Shown one piece after another: positions 4,434-52,800 of a stretch of DNA of 64,000 bases; position 1 is the first letter of the stretch, and each line of letters opens with the position of its first letter. The notes beneath the pieces were generated by a model that was not told the DNA's origin, did not search any database, and saw only the letters and a list, made by a program, of their open reading frames with translations. The stretch is from the NCBI RefSeq assembly GCF_000478825.2, contig NZ_CP007542.1, positions 2,356,001 to 2,420,000 of the forward strand. The letters are read 5' to 3'. The position numbers were made by a program, and so were the translations under genes. This DNA comes from Synechocystis sp. PCC 6714 (GTDB lineage Bacteria > Cyanobacteriota > Cyanobacteriia > Cyanobacteriales > Microcystaceae).

Positions 4434-6095
4434 ATGCTTAAAACTCAGAATTTACGATATCCTATCTCTAAAATAAGCTCTTTTTTATTAGGAATTGGAA
4501 TTGCTTGTTTGACGATAATACCTGTTAAGGCTGCCGAGGAACTGTTTTTTATCTACAGTCCTGTAAATTTTTCCGTGGAAATTAGCTCATTAGAACTATT
4601 TGCCAAGGAAGGAAAAGTTAATAAAAATCTCGAATTTTATCTTCAGTTTGTCACCCCCGAACAAAAAGCGGCTTTCCGAGAAGTCCTGACCAAAAAGATT
4701 GATTTACCACCAGTGGTAATATCACGTTTTTTTAACACAAGTATTGGTGAAGATATTCTGACACGGCTGGGTAAAGGAATTACAATTCAAGGGGGAAGTA
4801 ATGGCAAATATGCCCTCCGGGCCGCCCTTGTGCAAGCGGCATTTGATCCTGAGGGTTTTACTTTGATCAATGTGCTGAAAAAGTTACCAACCAATATGGA
4901 GTTTCAGGGGCCACTATTGTTGGGATTTGCCCAAGAGTCTCAAAAATTTATCTTAGCAACCGAAACTCTGATCAAAGAACTTCGCCAGCTTACGCTTGAG
5001 GAGGCTACCACCGATCGCCCCGTAGACTATTCTCAGTTAACGGATATGCGTCAAGTCGGCCCCCATAAATTTACTAAAGAGGTTTGGAATTTAACAGATA
5101 CAAGCCGAAATCGCTCCTTTTATGTGGATGTTTATGTGCCCCAATCTGTTGATGCAGAAATGCCGGTGGTGGTATTCTCCCATGGGTTAGCGTCCCGTCC
5201 CGAAGACTATGGCCAAGCTTTAGAGCGTTTAGCCTCCTACGGTTTTTTAGTAGCGGCTCCCCAACATCCTGGTAGTGATAGCATTTGGGCTAAAGAAGTG
5301 TTAGAAGGCTATCACCAAGATGCCTTTGACCTCAATGATTTTATTAACCGCCCTAAAGATATTAGCTTTGTTATTGATGAATTAGAACGGCGGAATGCGA
5401 CTCAATTTCAAAACAGGTTAAATTTACAAAATGTGGGCATGGGCGGCCATTCTTTCGGAGGCTATACGGCCCTGGCGATCGCCGGTGCAGAAATTGATTT
5501 CGAGAATCTAAAACAGGAGTGTGAGCGAGCCTATAGCGGTGTTAATGTTGCCCTTCTATTACAATGTCGTGCTGTAGATTTACCTCAGCAAACCTACAAT
5601 TTTCGAGATAATCGAGTTAAAGCAGTGTTTGCCGCCAATCCTGTCAATCGCGCCATTTTTGGACCCAAGGGACTGGGTAAAATTACCATTCCCATTATGT
5701 TCGGTTCGGGAAGTTATGATCCTGCCGCTCCGCCGGCCCTAGAACAAGCCGCATCTTTTACCTGGTTAGGAAGTTCCCAGAAATACTGGGCAATGGTGGA
5801 AGGGCAAGCCCATGTTAATTTTTCGGAATTGGATGCAGGTCTGAGTAAAAGTATTGAAACTGTGACTCAATTGACCTTACCCAGTCAAGATTTAATCACT
5901 GATTACACGGCGGCTATTGAGATTCCTTTTTTCGAAATTTATATTAACCAAAATGAAAAATTTCGTCCCTATTTACAATCTGCCTATGCGGAATATTTAA
6001 GCCAGGGAAAAGAGTTTAAGCTGGATTTGATTAGTCAAGCTTCTGTTCCAAAGTTGATTGATGCCATTGAAAAATTTAAGCGAGAACACCCGTAA
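4434..6095 (+). CDS. Secreted alpha/beta hydrolase with N-terminal DUF1400 domain
   Basis: I chose the ATG at 4434 because it gives a clean signal peptide (MLKTQNLRYPIS, hydrophobic core, cleavage near VKA-AEE). The frame is open to a TTG at 4356 that overlaps the upstream stop. After the signal peptide comes a DUF1400 region of roughly 120 residues, typical of cyanobacterial predicted lipases. The hydrolase fold follows, with FSHGLASRPEDY as oxyanion-loop region, the nucleophile elbow GHSFGGY (Ser codon at 5451-5453) and a likely catalytic His in GQAHVNF (5811-5813). It resembles the 'predicted dienelactone hydrolase' group, and substrates are unknown. It closes the rightward secreted-protein run. 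The first HIP1 octamer of the window lies inside it (5475-5482). Confidence 0.85.
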   Translation: MLKTQNLRYPISKISSFLLGIGIACLTIIPVKAAEELFFIYSPVNFSVEISSLELFAKEGKVNKNLEFYLQFVTPEQKAAFREVLTKKIDLPPVVISRFFNTSIGEDILTRLGKGITIQGGSNGKYALRAALVQAAFDPEGFTLINVLKKLPTNMEFQGPLLLGFAQESQKFILATETLIKELRQLTLEEATTDRPVDYSQLTDMRQVGPHKFTKEVWNLTDTSRNRSFYVDVYVPQSVDAEMPVVVFSHGLASRPEDYGQALERLASYGFLVAAPQHPGSDSIWAKEVLEGYHQDAFDLNDFINRPKDISFVIDELERRNATQFQNRLNLQNVGMGGHSFGGYTALAIAGAEIDFENLKQECERAYSGVNVALLLQCRAVDLPQQTYNFRDNRVKAVFAANPVNRAIFGPKGLGKITIPIMFGSGSYDPAAPPALEQAASFTWLGSSQKYWAMVEGQAHVNFSELDAGLSKSIETVTQLTLPSQDLITDYTAAIEIPFFEIYINQNEKFRPYLQSAYAEYLSQGKEFKLDLISQASVPKLIDAIEKFKREHP

Positions 6096-6161
6096 CTTTA
6101 GTGGAAAAAGTAGTTTTGGGTAAATTAATAATACAAAAGGAATCGATACCTCGAATACGTA

Positions 6162-42682: not shown

Positions 42683-43210
42683 ATGAATTTTTCCCCAGCA
42701 CCTTTTCTTTCTTCCCTTGCCCCTAGGCAGCTTCGGCGGAGATTATTAATGCCGTTGGGCTTAGCTGTCACTTTTTGGTTGCCGTTTTCCCTTCCGGCTA
42801 GGGTTGTGGCCCAAACGTTCTCCACAGATCCAGACTTTACTAGTTTGAAGCAACAATTGGAAGCCAAGCAATTTAAAGTTTTGTTGTCTCCCCCTCCCCA
42901 GCGGGGAGCCTATGGATTGCTCAATGCCCAGAGCCGCACCATCTGGATTCATCCCCTCACCTTTGAGTTGGGCATTGCTGTGCCAGTGATTGTTCATGAA
43001 GCGGTACATGCTGCCCAGGTATGTAAGGGCAAAGGACAACTCGCTCCCCTGGGGGTAACGGCGGAACCATTGGTCTATGCCCGACCTTTTTGGCTGCGAT
43101 ACGGTGATATTCACCGCCAAGACTTGGAGCGGGAAGCTTTCACCATACAAACCCAGCCAAATCGCATGGCATTAGTTTCTGATTACCTTAATCAATTTTG
43201 CCCATCTTGA
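42683..43210 (+). CDS. Secreted putative zinc-metallopeptidase-like protein
   Basis: The ATG at 42683 gives a good signal peptide (APRQLRRRLLMPLGLAVTFW, ending near ARVVAQ); the frame remains open upstream to 42587 without improving it. The mature protein of about 130 residues has VIVHEAVHAAQ, an HExxH-type motif, which suggests a zinc site, and ends DYLNQFCPS. The family is unnamed to me. No third ligand can be fixed. It is divergent from the TPR gene and ends 4 bp before the small minus-strand gene at 43215-43322. Confidence 0.7.
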   Translation: MNFSPAPFLSSLAPRQLRRRLLMPLGLAVTFWLPFSLPARVVAQTFSTDPDFTSLKQQLEAKQFKVLLSPPPQRGAYGLLNAQSRTIWIHPLTFELGIAVPVIVHEAVHAAQVCKGKGQLAPLGVTAEPLVYARPFWLRYGDIHRQDLEREAFTIQTQPNRMALVSDYLNQFCPS

Positions 43211-43214
43211 TAAT

Positions 43215-43322
43215 TCATTTCCGCCAGGGCCAACGGGTACCCATTTCGGTTTTGGCGGACCAAACTAGGTAAAGCACCAATAGGCCAACGCCTGCAAGAA
43301 AGGGTAATAGGTCTTCTTTCAT
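43215..43322 (-). CDS. Micro-membrane protein of 35 residues
   Basis: The minus-strand frame starts at an ATG (43320-43322) preceded by GGGAAG and ends with TGA at 43215-43217. The peptide has an acidic start (MKEDLLP), a single hydrophobic span of about 14 residues (FLAGVGLLVLYLVW) and a basic tail (TRWPWRK), a layout typical of small thylakoid or plasma-membrane subunits. It does not match PetG, PetL, PetM or PsbN as I remember them. It is below the size normally annotated, so it may be unlisted. Confidence 0.45.
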   Translation of the reverse strand: MKEDLLPFLAGVGLLVLYLVWSAKTEMGTRWPWRK

Positions 43323-43537
43323 AACTTCCCACGTCGTAATTTTGCTTAGGCTATAACAAAAAAAGGCGATCATCACAACAAATATTCGTACACAAAAACT
43401 TATTTAAGGGTCACTTCAATGCTAATGTCAAGAGCTGAGGTCTGATGGCGCACCGTCGTTTAAGGCTTAGGTTTACGTCGGCGATACTTGTGAAATTCCC
43501 CTAAAATGAAACCAGCGTTTTTTCGAGGTTCTGTCCC
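43323..43537. other. Intergenic stretch, left border of accessory island
   Basis: About 215 bp separate the 35-residue gene from the DUF433 gene. I see no gene or clear repeat. The stretch is AT-rich and probably contains the promoter of the toxin-antitoxin-like pair. Confidence 0.4.
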
Positions 43538-43870
43538 TTGACTTTAGCATCTATCCCTACAAAACAGTACATTGAACAGCGGGAAGAAGAATACTGGATT
43601 AAAGGAAGTCGTGTTTCACTAGACTCAGTAGTGTATTCCTTTCTTGAGGGGGAAACGCCGGAAGTCATTGCCCAAAACTTTCCTCTCCTTTCCCTTGAGC
43701 AAGTTTATGGTGCGATAACGTTTTATCTTGCCAATCGTGAACTTATAAATACATATTTACGAAATGGAGAAACTGAGTTTAGACAGCTACAGAAAAATTG
43801 TCAGCAAAGAAGTCCTCAGTTGCATCAAACACTAATGGCAGCCCAAGCTCAATTATCACAACCGTCATGA
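43538..43870 (+). CDS. DUF433 antitoxin-like DNA-binding protein
   Basis: The start is a TTG at 43538. The 110-residue protein matches DUF433: EYWIKGSRVSLDSVVYSFLEG, then GETPEVIAQNFPLLSLEQVYGAITFYL, a winged/helix-turn-helix-like fold often paired with DUF5615 nuclease-like proteins. The tail after residue 85 (RQLQKNCQQRSPQ) is likely the partner-binding part. Its TGA overlaps the next ATG in ATGA (43867-43870), a typical toxin-antitoxin coupling. The pair marks the left side of the accessory island. Confidence 0.8.
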   Translation: MTLASIPTKQYIEQREEEYWIKGSRVSLDSVVYSFLEGETPEVIAQNFPLLSLEQVYGAITFYLANRELINTYLRNGETEFRQLQKNCQQRSPQLHQTLMAAQAQLSQPS

Positions 43871-44220
43871 CAAGGGTTCGGTTTCAGGCTGACGCTGATC
43901 TCAAACAGGCGATTGTGACTGGTGTAATCCGTAGATGCCCAAATCTGGATTTTCAGTCGGCGAATGAAGTTGGTCTTGAGGGTGTCCAAGATCAAAGTGT
44001 GTTAACCATTGCGGCCCAAGATAAAAGGATTTTAGTTACCCACGACCGCAAAACGATGCCAAAGGAGTTTGGTGAGTTTATCGTTTCTCGGAATAGTTAT
44101 GGCGTAATTGTTATTGCCCAGCATCTGCCGGTTCGTGAAGCAATTAATGGAATCATCATGATTTGGGAAGTGTCAACGGCGGAAGAATGGCTCAATCAAA
44201 TTATGACTTTGCCGTTATGA
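43867..44220 (+). CDS. DUF5615 PIN-like toxin
   Basis: The ATG at 43867 overlaps the DUF433 stop; a longer frame to 43798 is a shadow of the antitoxin. The 117-residue protein resembles DUF5615 PIN-like nucleases: VRFQADADLKQAIVTGVIRR with acidic residues at the start, then EVGLEGVQDQSVLTIAAQ, and RILVTHDRKTMP with the conserved Asp. This gives the acidic set expected of a PIN fold. It probably cuts RNA when freed from its partner; this follows from family knowledge only. A gap of 138 bp separates it from the kinase gene. Confidence 0.75.
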   Translation: MTRVRFQADADLKQAIVTGVIRRCPNLDFQSANEVGLEGVQDQSVLTIAAQDKRILVTHDRKTMPKEFGEFIVSRNSYGVIVIAQHLPVREAINGIIMIWEVSTAEEWLNQIMTLPL

Positions 44221-44358
44221 AATCGCTCCCAACAATGACCAGCCATCAGACTACAGCCAAAAAAGGCGATCGCCACAGTCAATGACGACAGACAGGTCCA
44301 AACTCAAAATAAAATTTCAATACTAAACAACTTTATTAATCTTTACAGTTTTCCTGAG

Positions 44359-45543
44359 TTGGTGGAACTATCATTGTTTTACCAAGATCCCAACTTGATT
44401 ATAGAGTTTATGTTTTTACAGTCCTGGAAAAGCTTAGAGGGAACCCATTTGAAGGACAAGTACTTACTTGAAACCTTGCTTGGGATTGGTGGGTTCGGCG
44501 CAGTGTTTCTGTCAAAAACAGTCGGCCACGATGGGGCGATCGCCAAGGTTGCGGTGAAATTAATGATCTGGGATAGCAAAAGGGAAAAAGAACAAACCCA
44601 AGAACTGGAGTTGGCAACTACGCTCAAGCACGACAGGCTAATCAATTTTTATGAATCCTTTATAACCGATGTGGAAGGACATTCCTTTTTGGCGTTGGTG
44701 ATGGAGTTGGCAGATTATTCTCTCCAAAACCGATTGGAGCAGTTATCAGAAGGGGAATTGCTACCCAGACCAGAGCGAGACCAGGTGATTGAGTCGGTGT
44801 TAGAGGCCCTTTGTTTTCTCCACGGCGAGGGCATTGTCCACAGGGATATTAAGCCAGATAACTTGCTATGGGTGAATGGGCAATGGAAGGTGGCAGATTT
44901 TGGTATTTCTCGCATCTTGGAAGAAGCCACCAGCACTAATACTAACGCCAATAACCTCAGCATTTCTTACCGATATATGCCTCCAGAAGCGGTAGAGGGC
45001 TTAATTTCTCCCCATTGGGATATTTGGTCTTTGGGGATTTTAATAACTCTGTTAATAACGGGGGAGCATCCTTTTCCCCACACAAATATAATGGAGCTGT
45101 CCTGGAAAATTCGTCACGAGTTACCGGTATTCACAGACGAAATTAATCCCCTTTATAACAAAATAATTTCCAGTTGTTTGGCCAAGGAACGCTATAAACG
45201 CTGGAATGCTAAAAAGTTATTTTCTTATTTCACTATTGTTAGAAGTTCAGATAATACGGAGGAGGAGATTGCTCATTTCTTAAATGAACGACTGGAGGAA
45301 ATTGAAGTTTTAAGGGAACATGACGATTATCGAGGGATTATTGCTCTTTGTAAAATTATTTTGGAATTGAAACCGGATCATTATGAAGCTTGGTACATTA
45401 AGGGAGAGGCCTATTCTTGTCTAGATCAGTACCAGGAAGCTCTAGATGCCTATGAGCATTCAATTAGCTGTAACCCTCATTACGCTATTGCAGTTCATGC
45501 CAGCAATTACATCAAACAAAAAATTGAAATTAAATCAATTTGA
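44359..45543 (+). CDS. Serine/threonine protein kinase with C-terminal TPR
   Basis: The longest start is a TTG at 44359; GTG 44362 and ATG 44410 (FLQSWKSLEGTHL) are alternatives. The 394 residues show a complete Hanks-type kinase: glycine loop GIGGFG (42-47), Lys67 in VAVK, HRDIKPDN (161-168), DFG (180-182) and PPE (208-210). A tail of about 100 residues follows, with TPR-like units near 320-385 (ALCKIILELKPDHYEAWYIKGEA, then QYQEALDAYEHSI). There is no transmembrane segment, so it is cytoplasmic. The next gene, 32 bp downstream, is an FHA-domain protein, the usual reader of phospho-threonine. Confidence 0.88.
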   Translation: MVELSLFYQDPNLIIEFMFLQSWKSLEGTHLKDKYLLETLLGIGGFGAVFLSKTVGHDGAIAKVAVKLMIWDSKREKEQTQELELATTLKHDRLINFYESFITDVEGHSFLALVMELADYSLQNRLEQLSEGELLPRPERDQVIESVLEALCFLHGEGIVHRDIKPDNLLWVNGQWKVADFGISRILEEATSTNTNANNLSISYRYMPPEAVEGLISPHWDIWSLGILITLLITGEHPFPHTNIMELSWKIRHELPVFTDEINPLYNKIISSCLAKERYKRWNAKKLFSYFTIVRSSDNTEEEIAHFLNERLEEIEVLREHDDYRGIIALCKIILELKPDHYEAWYIKGEAYSCLDQYQEALDAYEHSISCNPHYAIAVHASNYIKQKIEIKSI

Positions 45544-45575
45544 AAATTTTCATATTTTTTTATGGAGTAAAATCA

Positions 45576-46349
45576 ATGACTAGTTATTATCCAACTTTAC
45601 AAATTAAAAGAGGTGAATATTTTTGTAAAGTTATTGAAATAAAGCCTTATGAGTCCAAATATGAATATTTCGTGGGGCGGCAAAGTGATGACTATACTGC
45701 AAAGAATTCAACTGATTTAGTGAGGGTAGAACGTAATCGTATTATATTGTTAAATAAAGAGAAAGTCATTTCACGTAAACACCTGACTCTCACAAGGGAA
45801 ATAGATGGTTGGTTTGTGATTGATCACAGTCGTAATGGAACTATCCTTGTCAGGTCTTCTGCACAAATAAAAATTGATGAGTTAAAAGATAGAAAATGTC
45901 TAGTTACTGATGGAGATCATATTATTATTGAAGATTGGGAATTAATATTTTGCGATCCAGATACGACAGTTAACAAAAAAATATTTTTACCTCCTTCTTA
46001 TCCTTGGGTATTTAGTCTTAGTCAGCAATCACTTTTTCATATTAAAAAAGGAAAAAGAATAAAGGTTGCGCTTGCCCCTCAACCGACAAAAGCTCTAGCA
46101 TGTATGGCCCTACGCAACATAAATAACTGTGGCAGACCAGTGGTGTGTACTTATCAAGATTTGATTGAAGCAATTTGGGGAGAAAATAGTTTTGGTATTA
46201 CGCCTGAGCGCATTCACCCAATTATGCAAAAAATTCGACAAGTATTTGAAGACCAACAAAAATTTGAGTGTGAACCAGATGATCCAAAACAGTTATTAGA
46301 AACCAAAAACGGTGAAGGTTACTTACTTAATATCCATTGTGAACATTGA
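45576..46349 (+). CDS. FHA-domain protein with C-terminal winged-helix DNA-binding domain
   Basis: The ATG at 45576 has a GGAG about 10 bases upstream; a TTG at 45540 is less likely. The 257 residues have an FHA domain (about 20-130) with GR at 34-35, SRKH at 66-69 and NGT at 87-89, the phospho-threonine-binding set. After a linker, residues about 165-255 look like an OmpR-type winged helix (VCTYQDLIEAIWGEN and ending LLETKNGEGYLLNI). The pairing makes it a candidate regulator controlled by the upstream kinase. Base composition is AT-rich. It converges with the GTPase gene with a 13-bp gap. Confidence 0.82.
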   Translation: MTSYYPTLQIKRGEYFCKVIEIKPYESKYEYFVGRQSDDYTAKNSTDLVRVERNRIILLNKEKVISRKHLTLTREIDGWFVIDHSRNGTILVRSSAQIKIDELKDRKCLVTDGDHIIIEDWELIFCDPDTTVNKKIFLPPSYPWVFSLSQQSLFHIKKGKRIKVALAPQPTKALACMALRNINNCGRPVVCTYQDLIEAIWGENSFGITPERIHPIMQKIRQVFEDQQKFECEPDDPKQLLETKNGEGYLLNIHCEH

Positions 46350-46362
46350 AGTATCATCAATT

Positions 46363-47529
46363 CTAAGGTAGTGCCAACTGTTTTTTAATAGCAACACTTA
46401 TTTCCTCTTGAGATGGAGGTTCTCCATTGTTGTTGGCGAAGAGGGAATATAATACATTGATATAAATTTCTCCCAATGTAGTAGTTATCGTTGCCGCAGT
46501 AGTAGCGGAAATAGCTCCTCCGGCAATAGAGCCAACCCCAGGTATCATCTTTAAAATATTTGAAACAATAGCTCGACCCACAAATGTTCCGCCGACTCCG
46601 GCCGCAAATGCCCCTACAATAGTCACTAAAAAGCTTTGATCTAGGGTGAGTCCAAAGGTAGCTGAAATAACAGCAAGCATTCCAACTTGAATCGGAACAA
46701 TCGCTACTGCATCTGAAAATGGAATTGGCGAAACTCCTACAGATCCTGCCGCCGCCGCCGCTGCTAATACTATTTTCCTGGATTTCCTTCTTTTAAGTTC
46801 TAGATCCACTTTCTGAGCGGCAACAAATGCCCTCTGAGTTCCCTCAGGCACTACTTCCATTGTTAACTTTACTAAATCATGTAATCCTATCGGAGGTAAA
46901 ATATGACCTTCATCTAGTTCTTCTTGGATGGCCCTAACACGGATAACATTTTTTGCTAATGGTAACTGTGATTGAACTATTTGGTGAAATGATTTTACCT
47001 GTCCATCGGAATCATGAACTTTATCTTGCCTTGCCTTAGTTATAACCACAATAACTGACATATAACTGCTAAATAGTTTAACTAACTCTTCCTCTGCTGG
47101 TTCAACACGACGCAGGTCTTCCGCAATGCAAATCCAGGCAACATGAATGTGCTCTTTGGAATCTGAGCTATTACTTTTGTTGATGACGAACTGGCGGAGT
47201 TCTTCGAGAGTTTCTGAAAAATCTGCCATTTCCAAACCACGAGTATCAAAGATAGAAAGGGGAACGCCTTCTTTCTTTATTTCTCTTGTATGTTGAGTGA
47301 CAGGACGACCTTGGCCAGTTGTTGCAAAATTTCCTTGAAAAACAGAATTAATTAAAGTACTTTTGCCTACACCAGTTCTTCCTGCAATCAAAATATTGAC
47401 ATGACCTCTCTCTTTTAAAGCTTCCTTAATTGCCTCTGTGACGACTGAATTTAAATCGAAGTTTTCCATGGGATTATTCGTTAGTGTAGGATAGTAATTT
47501 TGTTGCGGTAAGACTAGTTGATTTTGCAT
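46363..47529 (-). CDS. Era/YcjF-like GTPase with hydrophobic glycine-rich C-terminus
   Basis: The 388 residues carry a TRAFAC-class GTPase domain: G1 GRTGVGKST (50-58), a Thr-rich switch (PVTQHTREIK, 77-85), G3 DTRG (95-98) and VVITKARQD (161-169) where the NKxD motif would be. The G4 motif is therefore non-canonical. Residues about 255-370 hold several hydrophobic, glycine-rich helices (IVLAAAAAAGSVGVSPIPF, VGMLAVISATFG, IPGVGSIAGGAIS), resembling DUF697. The second start at 47469 (MENFDLNSVV) is possible. It is the last gene of a leftward operon with two small glycine-zipper proteins and a YkvA protein. A role at the membrane is likely; function is unknown. Confidence 0.8.
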   Translation of the reverse strand: MQNQLVLPQQNYYPTLTNNPMENFDLNSVVTEAIKEALKERGHVNILIAGRTGVGKSTLINSVFQGNFATTGQGRPVTQHTREIKKEGVPLSIFDTRGLEMADFSETLEELRQFVINKSNSSDSKEHIHVAWICIAEDLRRVEPAEEELVKLFSSYMSVIVVITKARQDKVHDSDGQVKSFHQIVQSQLPLAKNVIRVRAIQEELDEGHILPPIGLHDLVKLTMEVVPEGTQRAFVAAQKVDLELKRRKSRKIVLAAAAAAGSVGVSPIPFSDAVAIVPIQVGMLAVISATFGLTLDQSFLVTIVGAFAAGVGGTFVGRAIVSNILKMIPGVGSIAGGAISATTAATITTTLGEIYINVLYSLFANNNGEPPSQEEISVAIKKQLALP

Positions 47530-47538
47530 AAAATATAT

Positions 47539-47874
47539 CTAACCAAATATATTTTTAACGCTTTGTCTTGCTTTTGCTTTGACGGAATCTGTAACGTACA
47601 TAGAGACCATTCCAATTGCTGCAGCTATTACGCCTAGATCATCAGTGTACCCAGCGACTGGGATAACATCAGGAACAGAGTCAATAGGGCAAATAAAATA
47701 AGCTAGGGCACTAAAAATAGCTGTTTTTGCCCATAACGGAGTATCTTTCTCTTGCGCAGCATAGTAAAGCCAAAGAGCTTTTTCGGTAACTTCTCGTCCC
47801 GCTTTCAGAGAAAAGTTCTTGATTTTTTGCCAAAATCCTGTGTCCGAGTATTTTTGCTTAACAGTAGAGGCCAT
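47539..47874 (-). CDS. YkvA family (DUF1232) membrane protein
   Basis: The 111-residue protein has the DUF1232 signature ALAYFICPIDSVPDVIPVAGY followed by DDLGVIAAAIGMVSMYV, with two membrane-associated helices. Members are common small membrane proteins with no settled function. It lies 9 bp upstream of the GTPase gene and 42 bp downstream of the 81-residue protein gene, all leftward, so the operon arrangement is strong. Confidence 0.85.
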   Translation of the reverse strand: MASTVKQKYSDTGFWQKIKNFSLKAGREVTEKALWLYYAAQEKDTPLWAKTAIFSALAYFICPIDSVPDVIPVAGYTDDLGVIAAAIGMVSMYVTDSVKAKARQSVKNIFG

Positions 47875-47916
47875 TGCTTATTTCTCCATTAATAAATTAG
47901 GTTTGGTCAATCACAA

Positions 47917-48162
47917 TTAGTTATTTTCTTGGCAATATTTGTAAGCTTTATACCCTGCGTATACAGCAACTCCTGCCACCGCTGCAATACCAGCGACAGG
48001 TAGAGCAACTACTGTAGTTGCAGTGGTTGTAAACCCTAAAAAGCCAGCAATCCCTGGGGCTGCAGTGGTAGTAGTTATGGTGGCAATAGTAATTTGTCCA
48101 CCTAAAGCTCCTCCTGCACCCAATCCTGTAGCAAGTCCTGCTCCCTTAATTTCATTCAGCAT
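47917..48162 (-). CDS. Glycine-zipper micro-membrane protein 1 (81 residues)
   Basis: The peptide starts MLNEIKGAGLATGLGAGGAL and carries two hydrophobic spans separated by a Thr-rich stretch (ATITTTTAAPG). The second ends ALPVAGIAAVAGVAVYAGYKAYKYC. Glycine and alanine spacing of the GxxxG kind is frequent, which favours tight helix packing in membranes. The C-terminal pattern PVxGxxxxxGxAxYxxxK is shared with the 77-residue protein upstream, so the two look like diverged paralogues. No export motif beyond the hydrophobic spans is present. A pore, membrane-remodelling partner or bacteriocin-like role is possible but unproven. Confidence 0.6.
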   Translation of the reverse strand: MLNEIKGAGLATGLGAGGALGGQITIATITTTTAAPGIAGFLGFTTTATTVVALPVAGIAAVAGVAVYAGYKAYKYCQENN

Positions 48163-48204
48163 GATTAAATCTCCTAGTTTTAGTAAAAAATTAGGGTATT
48201 TTAA

Positions 48205-48438
48205 TTAATCCAAAATCTTTTTCACTCCATAAGCTGCAAGTCCTGTAACAACCCCAGCCCCGATAACAGGTGCAGCTCCCACAGCTATAGCTCCAAAGCC
48301 ACCAGCCAAACCCATATTGCCCACAAACGCAGCAAGTCCAGCTCCGAGGGCACCACCACCCACAGCAAAGCCGGCTGCTTCTTTAATTTTTTCTTCTTGT
48401 TTCTGTTTAAACATAAGCCATTGTCCTGTTAAATTCAT
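48205..48438 (-). CDS. Glycine-zipper micro-membrane protein 2 (77 residues)
   Basis: The longest start is at 48438; an ATG at 48414 (MFKQKQEEKIKEAAG) has an AGGA about nine bases upstream and may be the true start (69 residues). A basic/acidic N-terminal helix is followed by two glycine-rich hydrophobic spans (FAVGGGALGAGLAAFVG and APVIGAGVVTGLAAYGVKK). It is the first gene of the leftward operon and shares its C-terminal pattern with the next protein. The shape recalls small helical-hairpin membrane peptides. Function unknown. Confidence 0.6.
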   Translation of the reverse strand: MNLTGQWLMFKQKQEEKIKEAAGFAVGGGALGAGLAAFVGNMGLAGGFGAIAVGAAPVIGAGVVTGLAAYGVKKILD

Positions 48439-48930
48439 AAGAACATCTTTAGCTTATGTTGAACGGCCAGAATTATATACGCAGAAGCTCCTTCTAGATT
48501 CTATTAATTTTGCGTCCCTTGAGAGCGGGTTTGGAAAGTAGGTTGAAGTATGAAAACTATAAAACTTTCACCATAATTAATGATAATGTGAGAATCTTAC
48601 AGCATCGACATAACTAATAACCAGTGGCAATTGGTAGAGTCTCATTTACCCAAAGCAAAAACTGAGGGAAGGAAACGAAGAATCAATAAAACCCCAGCAA
48701 CGCTGCTAAGCATATAAAAATCTGGTCAGGGAATGGGGTATATAGAGCCAGGATGGTTACCATGGCATTATTCTGACTAACCCACAACAACCCTAATTAT
48801 GGCGATCGCCTAGAATAGAAAACTGAAAGCGGCAATGGAGCCTAAAAATCCCTGATGGTTTTCCCCTGGGGATTAGTTTGCTTAAAAAAGTCTCATTTAA
48901 TCATTTATTGTCAAATTATCCCGTTAAACT
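48439..48930. other. Intergenic region with transposase remnant, right border of island
   Basis: This 492-bp stretch contains the promoter of the glycine-zipper operon at its left end, the IS5-type remnant (48586-48717) and a HIP1 octamer at 48802-48809. The rest shows no gene. The upstream region of the LptC-like gene lies at its right end. Confidence 0.5.
48586..48717 (+). pseudogene. IS5-type transposase N-terminal remnant
   Basis: An ATG at 48586-48588 is followed at once by TGA (48589-48591). After this the frame reads ESYSIDITNNQWQLVE, then SHLPKAKTEGRKRRINKT, to a TAA at 48715-48717. This matches the first 40 residues of IS5/IS1031-type transposases (DLTxxQWxLIExLLPxxKxxGRxRxxD). The rest of the element is not recognisable. 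It lies in the gap at the right border of the accessory island. Confidence 0.65.
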
Positions 48931-50124
48931 TTGCTAACTTCATTTTTTTTGCCCCTACGTCGTTTTTCCTCTGTTTTATTGGGGGGATTGATTTTTAGCA
49001 CGTTGATGCTAAGCAGCTGTGCTCCCCCCGATCCCCTGGAACAGCGTAGTCAACCACCGCCACCCAAGGAAGAAAGTAGCCTCACCCTCAACAATGCCAC
49101 CCTGGAACAGGCCAACGCTAAGGGACAAACGGTCTGGAAAATCCAGGTGCGGGAAGCCCGCTATAGCCCCGATGGCAGGAATGCAACCCTAGTTGAGGTG
49201 AAAGGGGATTTTTACGAAAATGGCAAAGTGGTGCTCCAGGTGAAGGCGGACAAAGGGGAAATCATCGAAGATGGCAAAGCGCTATTCCTGCGGGAGAACA
49301 TTGTTGCCCTTGACCCCCGTAATAAGGCGGTGTTGCGAGCCCAGGAAGTGGAGTGGCAGACGGAATCCAGCGTTTTAATTGCCCGCCAAAACCTAAAGGG
49401 GGAACATCCCGATTTAACTGTTACGGCCAAGGAGGGACGCTATGAAACCAAGGACCAAAGGTTAATCGTTTCCGGTGATGTGGTGGCGGTGACGGAACAC
49501 AACACCAAGGGCCAGAATCAGCCCAAAGACCCCCGCCGCCTAGAGTTAAAAACCGATAGTGTTACTTGGGAAATTAACAAAGACCGGGTTTTTGGCGATC
49601 GCCCATTGACCCTAGTGCGCTTTGTGGATAAAACTGCCACCGACGAAGTAAAAAGCGACCGAGCGGAATTATTGCTCAAGAAACAGTTGGTACACTTAGC
49701 GGGCTTAAATCAGTTCAAATCCATCCAACCGCCGCTACAAATCGCCGCCGAACCCATTAGTTGGTCTTACCTAAATCGATTTGTCACCACCGACAATCCC
49801 ATTAGCATTGTGGACTATGAACAACAAATTACAGTGCGGGGCAACCGCGGTTTTGTCAACTTGGCTGACGGGGTAGCAAAACTAGAACAGGGCACTAACA
49901 CCACGAGTCAAACGCAACAATCCCAACTCTATGCCGATGAGCTAACCTACAATTTTGGTCCCCAGACATTGGAGGCCAAGGGCAACATCATCTATGAGCA
50001 ACACAAGGGAGTTAAATTCAACCTCACTGGGGATTTAGCCCAGGGTTCTTTACCGGATAATAATGTGGTGGTAACCAGTACTAGCCCCGAAAGAGTAGTG
50101 ACGGAAATTTTCCCCAATCAGTAG
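48931..50124 (+). CDS. LptC/OstA-like LPS-export lipoprotein
   Basis: The start appears to be TTG at 48931. Residues 1-30 are a lipoprotein signal ending in the lipobox LSSC. The 397-residue protein is built of beta-jellyroll units of the LptA/LptC/OstA type, with phrases such as VEVKGDFYENGKVVLQVKADKGEI, TVTAKEGRYETKDQRLIVSGDVV and LEAKGNIIYEQHKGVKF. It is about twice the length of enterobacterial LptC, as usual for cyanobacterial forms. It probably carries lipopolysaccharide from the inner membrane towards the outer membrane. It converges with mutS. Confidence 0.83.
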   Translation: MLTSFFLPLRRFSSVLLGGLIFSTLMLSSCAPPDPLEQRSQPPPPKEESSLTLNNATLEQANAKGQTVWKIQVREARYSPDGRNATLVEVKGDFYENGKVVLQVKADKGEIIEDGKALFLRENIVALDPRNKAVLRAQEVEWQTESSVLIARQNLKGEHPDLTVTAKEGRYETKDQRLIVSGDVVAVTEHNTKGQNQPKDPRRLELKTDSVTWEINKDRVFGDRPLTLVRFVDKTATDEVKSDRAELLLKKQLVHLAGLNQFKSIQPPLQIAAEPISWSYLNRFVTTDNPISIVDYEQQITVRGNRGFVNLADGVAKLEQGTNTTSQTQQSQLYADELTYNFGPQTLEAKGNIIYEQHKGVKFNLTGDLAQGSLPDNNVVVTSTSPERVVTEIFPNQ

Positions 50125-50163
50125 GGCAAGTTATTGATTAAGGAACTCGCAGGATTTACGACT

Positions 50164-52800
50164 TTAAAAACCAAAAATATCTAATTGTTTGGCTGTGTCT
50201 TCCGCTATTGCAGTATCCGTTTGACCAGCCATCATTTTGCCGCGATTACCCTTGCGTAAACCGACGGCGATTTTACTATGTTTTTCAATCTGGGCCATTA
50301 CCTGCCGGGCCCTAGTAATAACGGAACTAGGTAATCCTGCTAAACGTCCTGCTTCAATGCCATAGGATTTATCCGCTCCCCCCGGTGTAACTTGGTGTAA
50401 AAAGATAATTTCCTCCGGTAATTCTTTGACCGTAACTTGAAAATTAGCCACATTTTCTAGTAGAGAAGCCAATTCGTTCAGTTCGTGATAGTGGGTGGCA
50501 AAAATTGTCCGAGCTTGGATTTCCCCCGCTAAATATTCCGCCACCGACCAGGCGATCGCCAAACCATCAAAGGTAGCAGTCCCCCGACCAATTTCATCCA
50601 GTAACACCAAAGATTTAGCGGTGGCATGGTTGAGAATATTGGCAGTTTCATTCATTTCTACCATAAAAGTTGACTGCCCCGTAGCTAGATCATCCACTGC
50701 CCCTACCCGGGTAAAAATACGGTCACAAATGCTTAAGGTTGCTGATTTTGCAGGAATAAAACTGCCAGTCTGGGCCATTAATTGTATTAATCCAACTTGG
50801 CGCAGATAGCAACTTTTGCCGCTGGCGTTGGGCCCTGTCAAAATGACCAAATCGGGATGCCAATGGTCATGGCCCAATTGGGTATTATTAGCGACAAAAA
50901 AGCCGGCCCCCAAGGATTGCTCCACCACCGGATGGCGCCCCGCTTCAATGTCAATTAAACCCGGTTCCGTTTGCATGGTGGGACGGCAATAACCTTGGTA
51001 AACTGCCACTTCCGCTAAACCGGCTAACACATCGATCGCCGCTACGGCCTTGGCCACTTCCCGGATCGGTTGGGCTTTTTCCGCCACGGTGGCCCGCACT
51101 TCAGTAAAAATTTCATACTCCAATTGATTCAATGCGGCCTGGGCAGTGAGAATCCTGGTTTCCCGCTCCTTTAATTCCGGTGTGATATATCTTTCCTCAT
51201 TAACTAAAGTCTGTTTACGAATGTAATTCTCCGGAGCTTGTTCCGACTTACTGCGGGGCAAACTGAGATAATAACCAAAGGCTTTGTTGTACCCTACTTT
51301 TAAATTGGCAATGCCGGTTTTTTCCCGTTCTGTGACTTCTAAATTGGCTAACCATTGGTTATCGTCCTCCGAACTTTGGCGCATTTCATCTAAGGCCTGA
51401 TTAACCCCACTGCGGATTAAGTTACCTTCACGAATATGTAAAGGGGGATTTTCCACAAGATGGGCCAACACATATTTGCCCAATTCTTCTAATTCCGGTG
51501 GTACTTTTTGCAAAGCCTTTAAATAGGGACTATGGCCTTCCTGGGCTAGCTCGGCTAAATCCGTTAATCGCACCAAAGAAGAAGCCAAACCGTACACATC
51601 CCTGGCACTGGCGGTGCCAGCCCCCACCCGTCCCGTTAATCGCTCCAAGTCATAAATTTGCCGTAATAGTTGCCGTAAATCCTGACGCAGGGGAGCATTT
51701 TCGTACAGTTCTTGGATGGTTTTTTGGCGAGCTTCAATGCCTTTTAGGTCCAACAATGGTTCCAGCAACCAACGGCGTAAAGCTCGACCACCCATGGTGG
51801 TGCTGGTGCGGTCCAAAGCCCACAGTAGGGAACCATGGAAACTACCATCCCGCACTGTTTGATTAATTTCTAAGTTGCGGCGGGTTTGGTGATCCAGAAT
51901 CAAAAAATCCGTTAACGCGTAGGTTTTTAATGGCTGGATGGGTACCACATGGGCTTTTTGGGTATCTTCAATGTATTCCAACAAACCACCGGCAGCCCGG
52001 ATTGCTAAAGGTAAGTTTTCACAGCCCATCCCTTCCAAAGATTTAACTCGAAAAGTAGTTAGTAGCCGTTGTTTTGCTTCCACCAAAGAAAAGGGAACTT
52101 GGGAGCGGAGGGAATAGCAAAAACTAATGGGCAATTGTTTAGGAATATATTCTGATGGTTCCCCCGGCCGCAAAATATTACGGATATCCGGAGCTGAAGT
52201 GGGAATGAGGACCTCCGACGGTTGTAATCTGAGTAATTCCACCGCCAAATCGTCCAAGTTGCTGGATTGGCAGGTGAAAAATTCCCCGGTGGAAATATCC
52301 GCATGGGCTAGGCCCCATTTATCGTCCACCAAGGCGATCGCCGCCAGGAAATTATTGCGCTTGGCGGGGAGCATACTGTCATCGGTCAAAGTGCCGGGGG
52401 TGAGTAACTTAGTTACTTGCCGTTCCACCATCCGCTTTTCCGCCTGGGCTTCGGCGGCATCCTCCACTTGGTCACAGATGGCCACGGCGTAGCCTTTTTC
52501 CACCAACTGCCGAGCGTAACGGTCCAGGGCATGGTGGGGCACACCGGTCATGGCTACCCGGCCAATTTCCTTGCCCCCCTCCTTGCTGGTTAAGATCAGT
52601 TCTAATTCCCTAGCAATGATCACCGCATCCTGGAAAAAACACTCAAAAAAGTCCCCCACCCGATATAACAAAAGAGCACCCTGATATTGTTCCTTGACCT
52701 CGGTGTAATGTTGGAACATCGGCGTCAACTTTTGGCGATCGAGCCCGTGATAGTCCCGTTGGGGTTCTTTAACTGTGCCGAGGAAGGGAGTATCAGTCAT
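50164..52800 (-). CDS. mutS: DNA mismatch repair protein MutS
   Basis: MutS recognises mismatches and small loops and starts repair with MutL. The ATG at 52800 ([17 protein letters not shown]) is chosen; the frame is open to 52953, but that extension would run into the divergent hypA gene. The 878 residues have the mismatch-binding domain ([20 protein letters not shown] with Phe-x-Glu), the connector and core domains, and the ATPase part with [32 protein letters not shown] and a C-terminal HTH. The length is normal. Confidence 0.96.

Follow-up and report, generated by a model that had tools for sequence, protein, structure and literature searches.

A predicted phospho-relay gene pair on a genomic island of Synechocystis sp. 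PCC 6714 and its different partners in related genomes

Cyanobacteria possess many Hanks-type Ser/Thr kinases, of whose targets only a small number have been identified. The closest described counterpart of the locus reported here is the PknH-EmbR pair of Mycobacterium, in which the partner of a Hanks kinase is a transcription factor combining an FHA domain with a DNA-binding domain of the OmpR type, pknH and embR being neighbouring genes. In one published account, EmbR has a BTA domain between its winged helix-turn-helix (wHTH) and its C-terminal FHA domain, and FHA-dependent phosphorylation stimulates the interaction with the target promoter (PMC4601284). We analyzed a 64,000-nucleotide stretch of Synechocystis sp. 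PCC 6714 (contig NZ_CP007542.1, positions 2,356,001 to 2,420,000; hereafter the window), in which a kinase gene and an FHA-wHTH gene face, tail to tail, an operon for a GTPase, a YkvA protein, and two small glycine-rich proteins. We put at roughly 45% the probability that this locus is one mobile 4.5-kb cassette, in which a PknH-EmbR-like relay controls an effector that can be exchanged and that at this locus is probably a GTPase acting at the membrane.

The six genes were confirmed by open reading frame listing, translation, and Pfam scans. The features are as follows (G000 is the genome carrying the window; other G and L labels denote comparison genomes and extracted loci):

44276..48786, no strand: island with all six genes, 39.2% guanine plus cytosine (GC), absent in G093
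44410..45543, plus strand: Hanks-type Ser/Thr kinase with C-terminal TPR, 377 aa (Pfam, motifs, hydropathy)
45576..46349, plus strand: FHA and OmpR-type winged-helix protein, a predicted phospho-reading transcription factor, 257 aa
46363..47529, minus strand: GTPase with hydrophobic helical DUF697 tail, 388 aa (G1 GRTGVGKS, G3 DTRG)
47539..47874, minus strand: YkvA / DUF1232 protein, 111 aa (Pfam)
47917..48162, minus strand: small glycine-rich hydrophobic protein 2, 81 aa
48205..48438, minus strand: small glycine-rich hydrophobic protein 1, 77 aa
48522..48687, no strand: insertion sequence (IS) end remnant, inside the right edge of the island (DNA match)
44266..44273, no strand: HIP1 palindrome GCGATCGC at the left border of the island (sequence)

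All genes described in the initial annotation, a model's reading of the letters, are present, as are its two gaps: 32 bp between the kinase and FHA genes, taking 45576 as the likely FHA start, and 13 bp between the convergent FHA and GTPase genes (46349/46363). On the minus strand, transcription would run from the two glycine-rich proteins (48438-48205 and 48162-47917) through the DUF1232 gene (47874-47539) to the GTPase gene (47529-46363).

The island was bounded by a DNA search with 8.8 kb around the locus against 5 genomes of the genus. One of these, G093, has an empty site, where the sequences corresponding to window positions 42827-44275 and 48787-50400 aligned only 6 bp apart, and the segment 44276-48786, comprising the six genes and the IS remnant, is present or absent as one block. 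The joint absence of the six genes implies that they were gained or lost either as a unit or as blocks stacked at a single position, which bears out the initial annotation in its sense of a mobile module. The GC content of the island, 39.2%, compares with 49.5% and 48.6% in the 5-kb flanks, and HIP1 occurs within it once, versus about 4.7 sites expected (P about 0.05). The initial annotation had also pointed to a toxin–antitoxin (TA)-like pair and a transposase remnant in the flanks, as in defence islands. Both are real, but the remnant, which matches the starts of transposase genes elsewhere in the genus at 80-82%, lies inside the right edge, and the DUF433/DUF5615 pair is kept in the empty-site genome G093 and hence lies beyond the island. 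The TA pair was accordingly rejected as a part of the system, and the argument from this flanking pair fails.

The kinase (PF00069, 154 bits) carries the catalytic motifs GIGGFGAV (P-loop), VAVK, HRDIKPDN, and DFG, and ends in a TPR tail (PF13431, 26.8 bits; cut-off 24.4); its start is likely the ATG at 44410, not the TTG at 44359. By hydropathy, neither the kinase nor the FHA protein has a membrane segment. The FHA domain exceeds its Pfam cut-off (PF00498, 27.8 versus 20.7 bits), and the winged helix falls under it by sequence (PF00486, 21.1 versus 26.2 bits). When an 11-sequence profile of the family was compared with the PDB, EmbR was the best match, through the FHA part (44 bits), and the wHTH part matched YycF/VicR (22.4 bits). 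An AlphaFold model of the protein (mean pLDDT 84.4, pTM 0.50) matched, by Foldseek, FHA domains and the DNA-binding domains of ArlR (6.2e-4) and ToxR (8.8e-4). Residues G34, R35, R67, and H69 of the FHA domain are invariant in 11 of 11 aligned sequences, and the predicted pair possesses the kinase and phospho-binding residues that a relay through the FHA domain would use.

A profile search of 386 cyanobacterial genomes with the FHA-wHTH family returned 14 full-length matches in 9 genomes; 15 weaker matches, covering the N-terminal FHA part or less, were excluded from the count. A Hanks kinase lies no more than 1.7 kb from 12 of these 14 loci, with kinase-FHA gaps of 11, 32, and 41 bp in three loci of the same genus and of 84-1,656 bp elsewhere. 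The kinase gene recurs in company with the FHA-wHTH gene, as the initial annotation had supposed in treating the two as a unit. The 12 loci are not independent, G002, G066, and G298 having loci in common; together with the uncultured cyanobacterium and the Stanieria plasmids described below, we count about nine distinct neighbourhoods. The chance calculated for 12 of 14 loci having a kinase within 2.5 kb, 1e-13, is too small, related genomes being treated as independent, and assumes about 35 kinases per genome, a value taken loosely from first-look candidate counts of 26-37. Both kinase-less exceptions represent one fixed site beside a sigma-factor gene, where the orphan FHA-wHTH gene is intact in G076 (L018 8101-8814), a remnant in G093 (L151, about 1884-2093), and broken by two stops in the window genome (G000:C1:2276824-2277540, L017).

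Beyond these genomes, the pair is found in L152, from an uncultured cyanobacterium, and on two conjugative plasmids of Stanieria; on the plasmids, the kinase is inverted, TnpB and a Uma2-type gene lie between the two genes, and serine proteases lie beside them. Among the best 80 of 582 loci in a contig search with the kinase, most are ordinary kinases; the FHA pair is present in L152, and a weak FHA-wHTH match was obtained in L210. The kinase had no match in viral contigs and, at 1e-35, one in plasmids, a Pseudanabaena record with 33% identity. In this record, a Pseudanabaena galeata plasmid (L288 5986-11407), the kinase has a TPR and precedes genes for an unnamed protein and a RecD-like helicase, and an IS5 transposase lies further on; this is possibly another kinase-plus-helicase arrangement.

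In G076 and G014, two further genomes of the genus, the pair faces a different partner tail to tail, namely a superfamily 2 (SF2) helicase of 1,078 aa or 1,042 aa, respectively, the gap being 38 bp in G076 and 127 bp in G014. The best PADLOC matches of the two helicases, all of them partial, are BrxH (106 and 104 bits) and DrmD (94 and 102 bits). The G076 unit forms an island of about 6.7 kb (L016 3021-9750), which G093 and G000 both lack at the corresponding site, where about 120 bp separate the flanks, and the G014 unit occupies a third site. This swap between the two bounded islands is the surprising part of the case, and the link between regulator and partner is its weak part. At E 1e-30, the helicase was detected in 5 of 292 genomes including G076 and G014; in the remaining three (G187, G233, and G282) it has no adjoining kinase or FHA relative, and the G282 gene is interrupted. 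A plasmid search with the helicase at 1e-60 gave no match.

The borders of the two islands show two further features. Each island starts right after a HIP1 palindrome GCGATCGC (window 44266-44275; L016 3012-3020), a word that occurs only about once per kb here, although alignments may tend to stop at such conserved words; in the right flank of the window island, a second HIP1 follows 15 bp beyond the border (48802-48809). The G076 island has, at its left edge (L016 3055-4054), repeated fragments of what we take to be a Uma2-type gene, perhaps traces of earlier insertions.

The components of the islands differ in their degree of conservation. Between G000 and G076, the kinases are 73% and the FHA proteins 40% identical, and the partners are unrelated, whereas two control pairs from G002 and G066 have kinase and FHA identities of 75% and 76%, and of 62% and 77%. 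Between G076 and G014, the helicases are more similar (68%) than the kinases (43%) or the FHA proteins (33%). The kinase tree groups G000, G076, and G014 at 100/100 and the FHA tree does so at 92/92 (not starred), the inner order being poorly resolved (59/32). From G000 to G076, the path length is 0.37 for the kinase and 2.45 for the FHA protein, versus about 0.34 and 0.27, respectively, for the control G002a-G066a. Replacement of the FHA gene as judged by tree conflict was not upheld: the two trees are compatible, and only the path lengths disagree.

These comparisons bear on whether the locus could be ancestral to the genus and have been deleted in G093, not gained by G000. The empty-site comparison is symmetrical, in that gain by G000 and loss by G093 fit this pair of genomes equally well, and G076, which has the two flanks of the window island at different places, cannot polarise the event. 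We nevertheless regard a deletion as very unlikely, given the GC content of the island (39.2% versus about 49%), the location of the FHA-kinase-helicase units of G076 and G014 at other sites, and the similarity of the kinase DNA of G000 to that of G076, which at 75% is lower than the 83-87% of the flanking DNA, so that the two kinase loci are not simple orthologues.

The opposing arm of the window island encodes a GTPase that scores above the Pfam cut-offs of MMR_HSR1 (38.5 versus 21.9 bits), DUF697 (34.4 versus 27.7), and AIG1 (31.8 versus 27.0), and its AlphaFold model (pLDDT 75.1) consists of a G domain and a helical tail. A first Foldseek search, which listed Toc34, IIGP1, and GIMAP7 among others, pointed to a possible kinship with IRG/GIMAP proteins; in a second comparison, the structures closest to the G domain were EngB, Toc34, and septins, which are tied (Z 18-19.5). 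The DUF1232 protein scores 52.9 bits against a cut-off of 23. By hydropathy, the GTPase tail and both small proteins have hydrophobic stretches, and the DUF1232 protein has one borderline segment. The initial annotation described the small proteins as two related glycine-zipper proteins. Their relatedness holds just above chance (score 68, reached by 0 of 500 shuffles, the best of which scored 67), and the zipper is a label from composition and four GxxxG motifs in each.

Matches to the GTPase at E 1e-29 or better occur in 11 of 292 cyanobacterial genomes besides the window's own. Among the 5 genomes of the genus, a close GTPase is present only in G000, the other four reaching no better than E 1.6e-10, and DUF1232 is likewise matched at E 1e-8 in G000 alone; the genus thus does not keep the GTPase operon as a fixed housekeeping locus. 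The gene is split in G135. In G033, the GTPase is 64% identical to that of the window and has a relative of small glycine-rich protein 1 directly upstream and a nucleotidyltransferase/HepT-like pair downstream; across 6 genomes of the order of G033, the GTPase was found only in the two already known.

Outside cyanobacteria, members of the GTPase family are carried by mobile elements. They occur in 62 plasmid records, the best of which have 43% identity; in the two inspected, non-mobilizable IncFIB plasmids of 104 and 112 kb with phage-like nucleotide-metabolism genes, which resemble phage-plasmids, the GTPase gene stands alone, in opposite orientation to its immediate neighbours. The family is further present on 20 IMG/VR viral contigs, and a search of 50,697 phage records at 1e-10 gave no match. 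In L267-L271, the GTPase (about 4992-6104) is an extra gene between tail-completion and baseplate genes in the apparent tail region of P2-like prophages, a setting confirmed in L267 by PHROG tail-completion and baseplate matches, and in L266 it comes just after a phage tail protein. P2-like phages are known to harbour defence hotspots, but a search of PMC9122126 brought up nothing on the site occupied here, and we do not claim it as such a hotspot. In L275 (331-8397), the GTPase (53%) lies between a 1,339-aa NACHT protein, which at its N terminus weakly matches the PADLOC candidate PDC-M54A, and the type I restriction gene HsdR. A small basic hydrophobic protein (71-90 aa), echoing the glycine-rich proteins of the window, is encoded directly upstream of the GTPase in L277 and L281-L284, and serine recombinase genes lie near the GTPase in four of these five contigs. 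The arrangement of a GTPase gene with a gene for a small hydrophobic protein directly ahead of it is thus seen again in distant hosts.

The empty site, the low GC content, the recurrence of the pair, the FHA residues, the matches to EmbR, ArlR, and ToxR, the helicase counterpart, the contrast between kinase and FHA identities in G000 and G076, and the occurrence of GTPase relatives as mobile cargo and, in L275, between NACHT and restriction genes together support a single cassette with a relay and an exchangeable effector, and its layout suggests the facing operon as the output. By analogy with PknH-EmbR, the kinase would be read by the FHA domain and the signal passed to the wHTH. A soluble Hanks kinase, switched on by a signal, would autophosphorylate; the FHA domain of its partner could then dock on the kinase phospho-threonine, and the docked or phosphorylated FHA-wHTH protein might alter its promoter binding. 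The most likely target would be the facing operon of the cassette, through the promoter upstream of 48438. The GTPase, with its probably membrane-inserting DUF697 tail, the YkvA protein, and the two small glycine-rich proteins would then act at the membrane, and the outcome would probably be a changed membrane integrity under attack or stress.

Several observations weigh against this reading. No kinase, FHA, or DUF1232 gene was found in any of the 11 cyanobacterial GTPase neighbourhoods (17 kb each, one of 4.4 kb), and none of the 20 viral-contig loci, the flanks of which range from some tens of bases to 5 kb, contains a kinase, FHA, DUF1232, or glycine-rich gene. Next to the kinase-FHA pairs of most other lineages, we recognised no effector of this sort. 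A search for repeats, a weak test, revealed no operator shared by the upstream regions of the two arms. The empty site may also be explained by two insertions in succession at the same position. Finally, because the three genomes group together in both trees but the path lengths differ, the FHA regulator either was swapped for a related one or diverged fast, perhaps alongside its targets, both being equally possible.

The DUF1232 gene gives a similar picture: of its 51 matches in the phylum, 30 including the window's own were fetched with 1.5-kb flanks, and none of the 29 others has a GTPase, FHA, kinase, or glycine-rich relative within that distance. The conserved six-gene neighbourhood proposed in the initial annotation is therefore rejected, since the GTPase operon and the kinase pair are unlinked in all other neighbourhoods examined. 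This is one of two outcomes that the annotation itself had named as speaking against it; the other, a GTPase operon fixed as a housekeeping locus in the genus, was not what we found.

The same absence of linkage favours an account in which the kinase-FHA pair and the GTPase operon are independent mobile units stacked at one hotspot, the pair regulating other genes. It agrees with the presence of the pair without the GTPase in many lineages, with the travel of the GTPase family in phages without the pair, and with the helicases of G187, G233, and G282, which lack it as well. Against stacking, both bounded islands of the genus consist of the pair and one partner unit in the same tail-to-tail layout, a point qualified by the small Uma2-like fragments at the left edge of the G076 island. 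We hold this account to be possible, in a tentative sense.

The locus could alternatively be an envelope-stress module with no role in phage defence, the kinase sensing membrane or osmotic stress and the GTPase, YkvA, and glycine-rich proteins repairing the envelope. The five DUF1232 relatives checked by eye are in ordinary contexts, as single genes or as domains of longer proteins, and the FHA-kinase loci of G002 and G066 adjoin genes that read, by eye, as vWA, FHA, and PP2C signalling genes. However, the distribution is mobile and patchy, the partner is exchanged for a helicase resembling defence helicases, and relatives of the GTPase occur in prophages and beside restriction genes, which makes a pure envelope function unlikely in our judgement. 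Defence, as the initial annotation hinted, is plausible because of this mobility, the replacement of the partner by a defence-type helicase, and the genes among which relatives of the GTPase occur. All of this is indirect support, and the helicase and the settings of the GTPase relatives add to what the annotation had to draw on. The bolder version, a mobile immune module that keeps its phospho-threonine relay and exchanges regulator specificity and effector together, the latter being either a helicase or a membrane GTPase with YkvA and micro-proteins, appears rather doubtful.

A cassette with a relay and an exchangeable effector would be of interest as a kinase travelling with its presumed reader and its presumed output operon, so that an entire pathway could be tested on a single transferable piece of 4.5 kb. 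Should the effector prove exchangeable, the cassette would be the phospho-regulated equivalent of modular sensor-effector architectures in other defence systems.

Compared with known defence systems, the cassette contains no complete PADLOC 2.0.0 system, the kinase and the GTPase matching by common catalytic domains alone. The best model for the kinase domain is mad6 (the MADS kinase Mad6, 174 bits), followed by PD-T4-6 models, and likeness to the defence-linked Ser/Thr kinases Mad6, PD-T4-6, and Stk2 is confined to this domain; among the 8 window proteins scanned, the rest of the MADS set was represented only by weak GTPase P-loop matches to mad8 and mad3. At E 0.5, the FHA protein, the DUF1232 protein, and one glycine-rich protein had no PADLOC match, and the other glycine-rich protein reached E 0.17 at best. 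The helicases of G076 and G014, which have no counterpart in the window, resemble DrmD of DISARM and BrxH of BREX, and no other DISARM or BREX genes were recognised by eye in their neighbourhoods. The GTPase matches LeoBC best, in the P-loop region alone (30.2 bits, residues 34-111), and differs from dynamin-like GTPases in that Pfam Dynamin_N stays under its cut-off (20.5 versus 27). DynA of B. subtilis is described as a membrane-associated GTPase that delays lysis after phage infection (PMC8844932); it is a precedent for a membrane outcome, not a relative of the window GTPase. The open-licence PMC literature yielded no FHA-wHTH/kinase defence pair and no DUF697-DUF1232 operon, which is weak evidence of absence.

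PknH-EmbR thus remains the nearest likeness, with clear differences. The FHA domain is N-terminal and the wHTH C-terminal in the 257-aa window protein, the reverse of EmbR, and no BTA domain was matched in it by Pfam at E 0.5; the window kinase differs from PknH in its TPR tail and in having no membrane segment by hydropathy; and the pair, unlike PknH-EmbR, rides on islands in this genus. What is new is how the parts are combined: a mobile phospho-relay pair, itself of a familiar regulatory type, is joined to a partner that varies between genomes.

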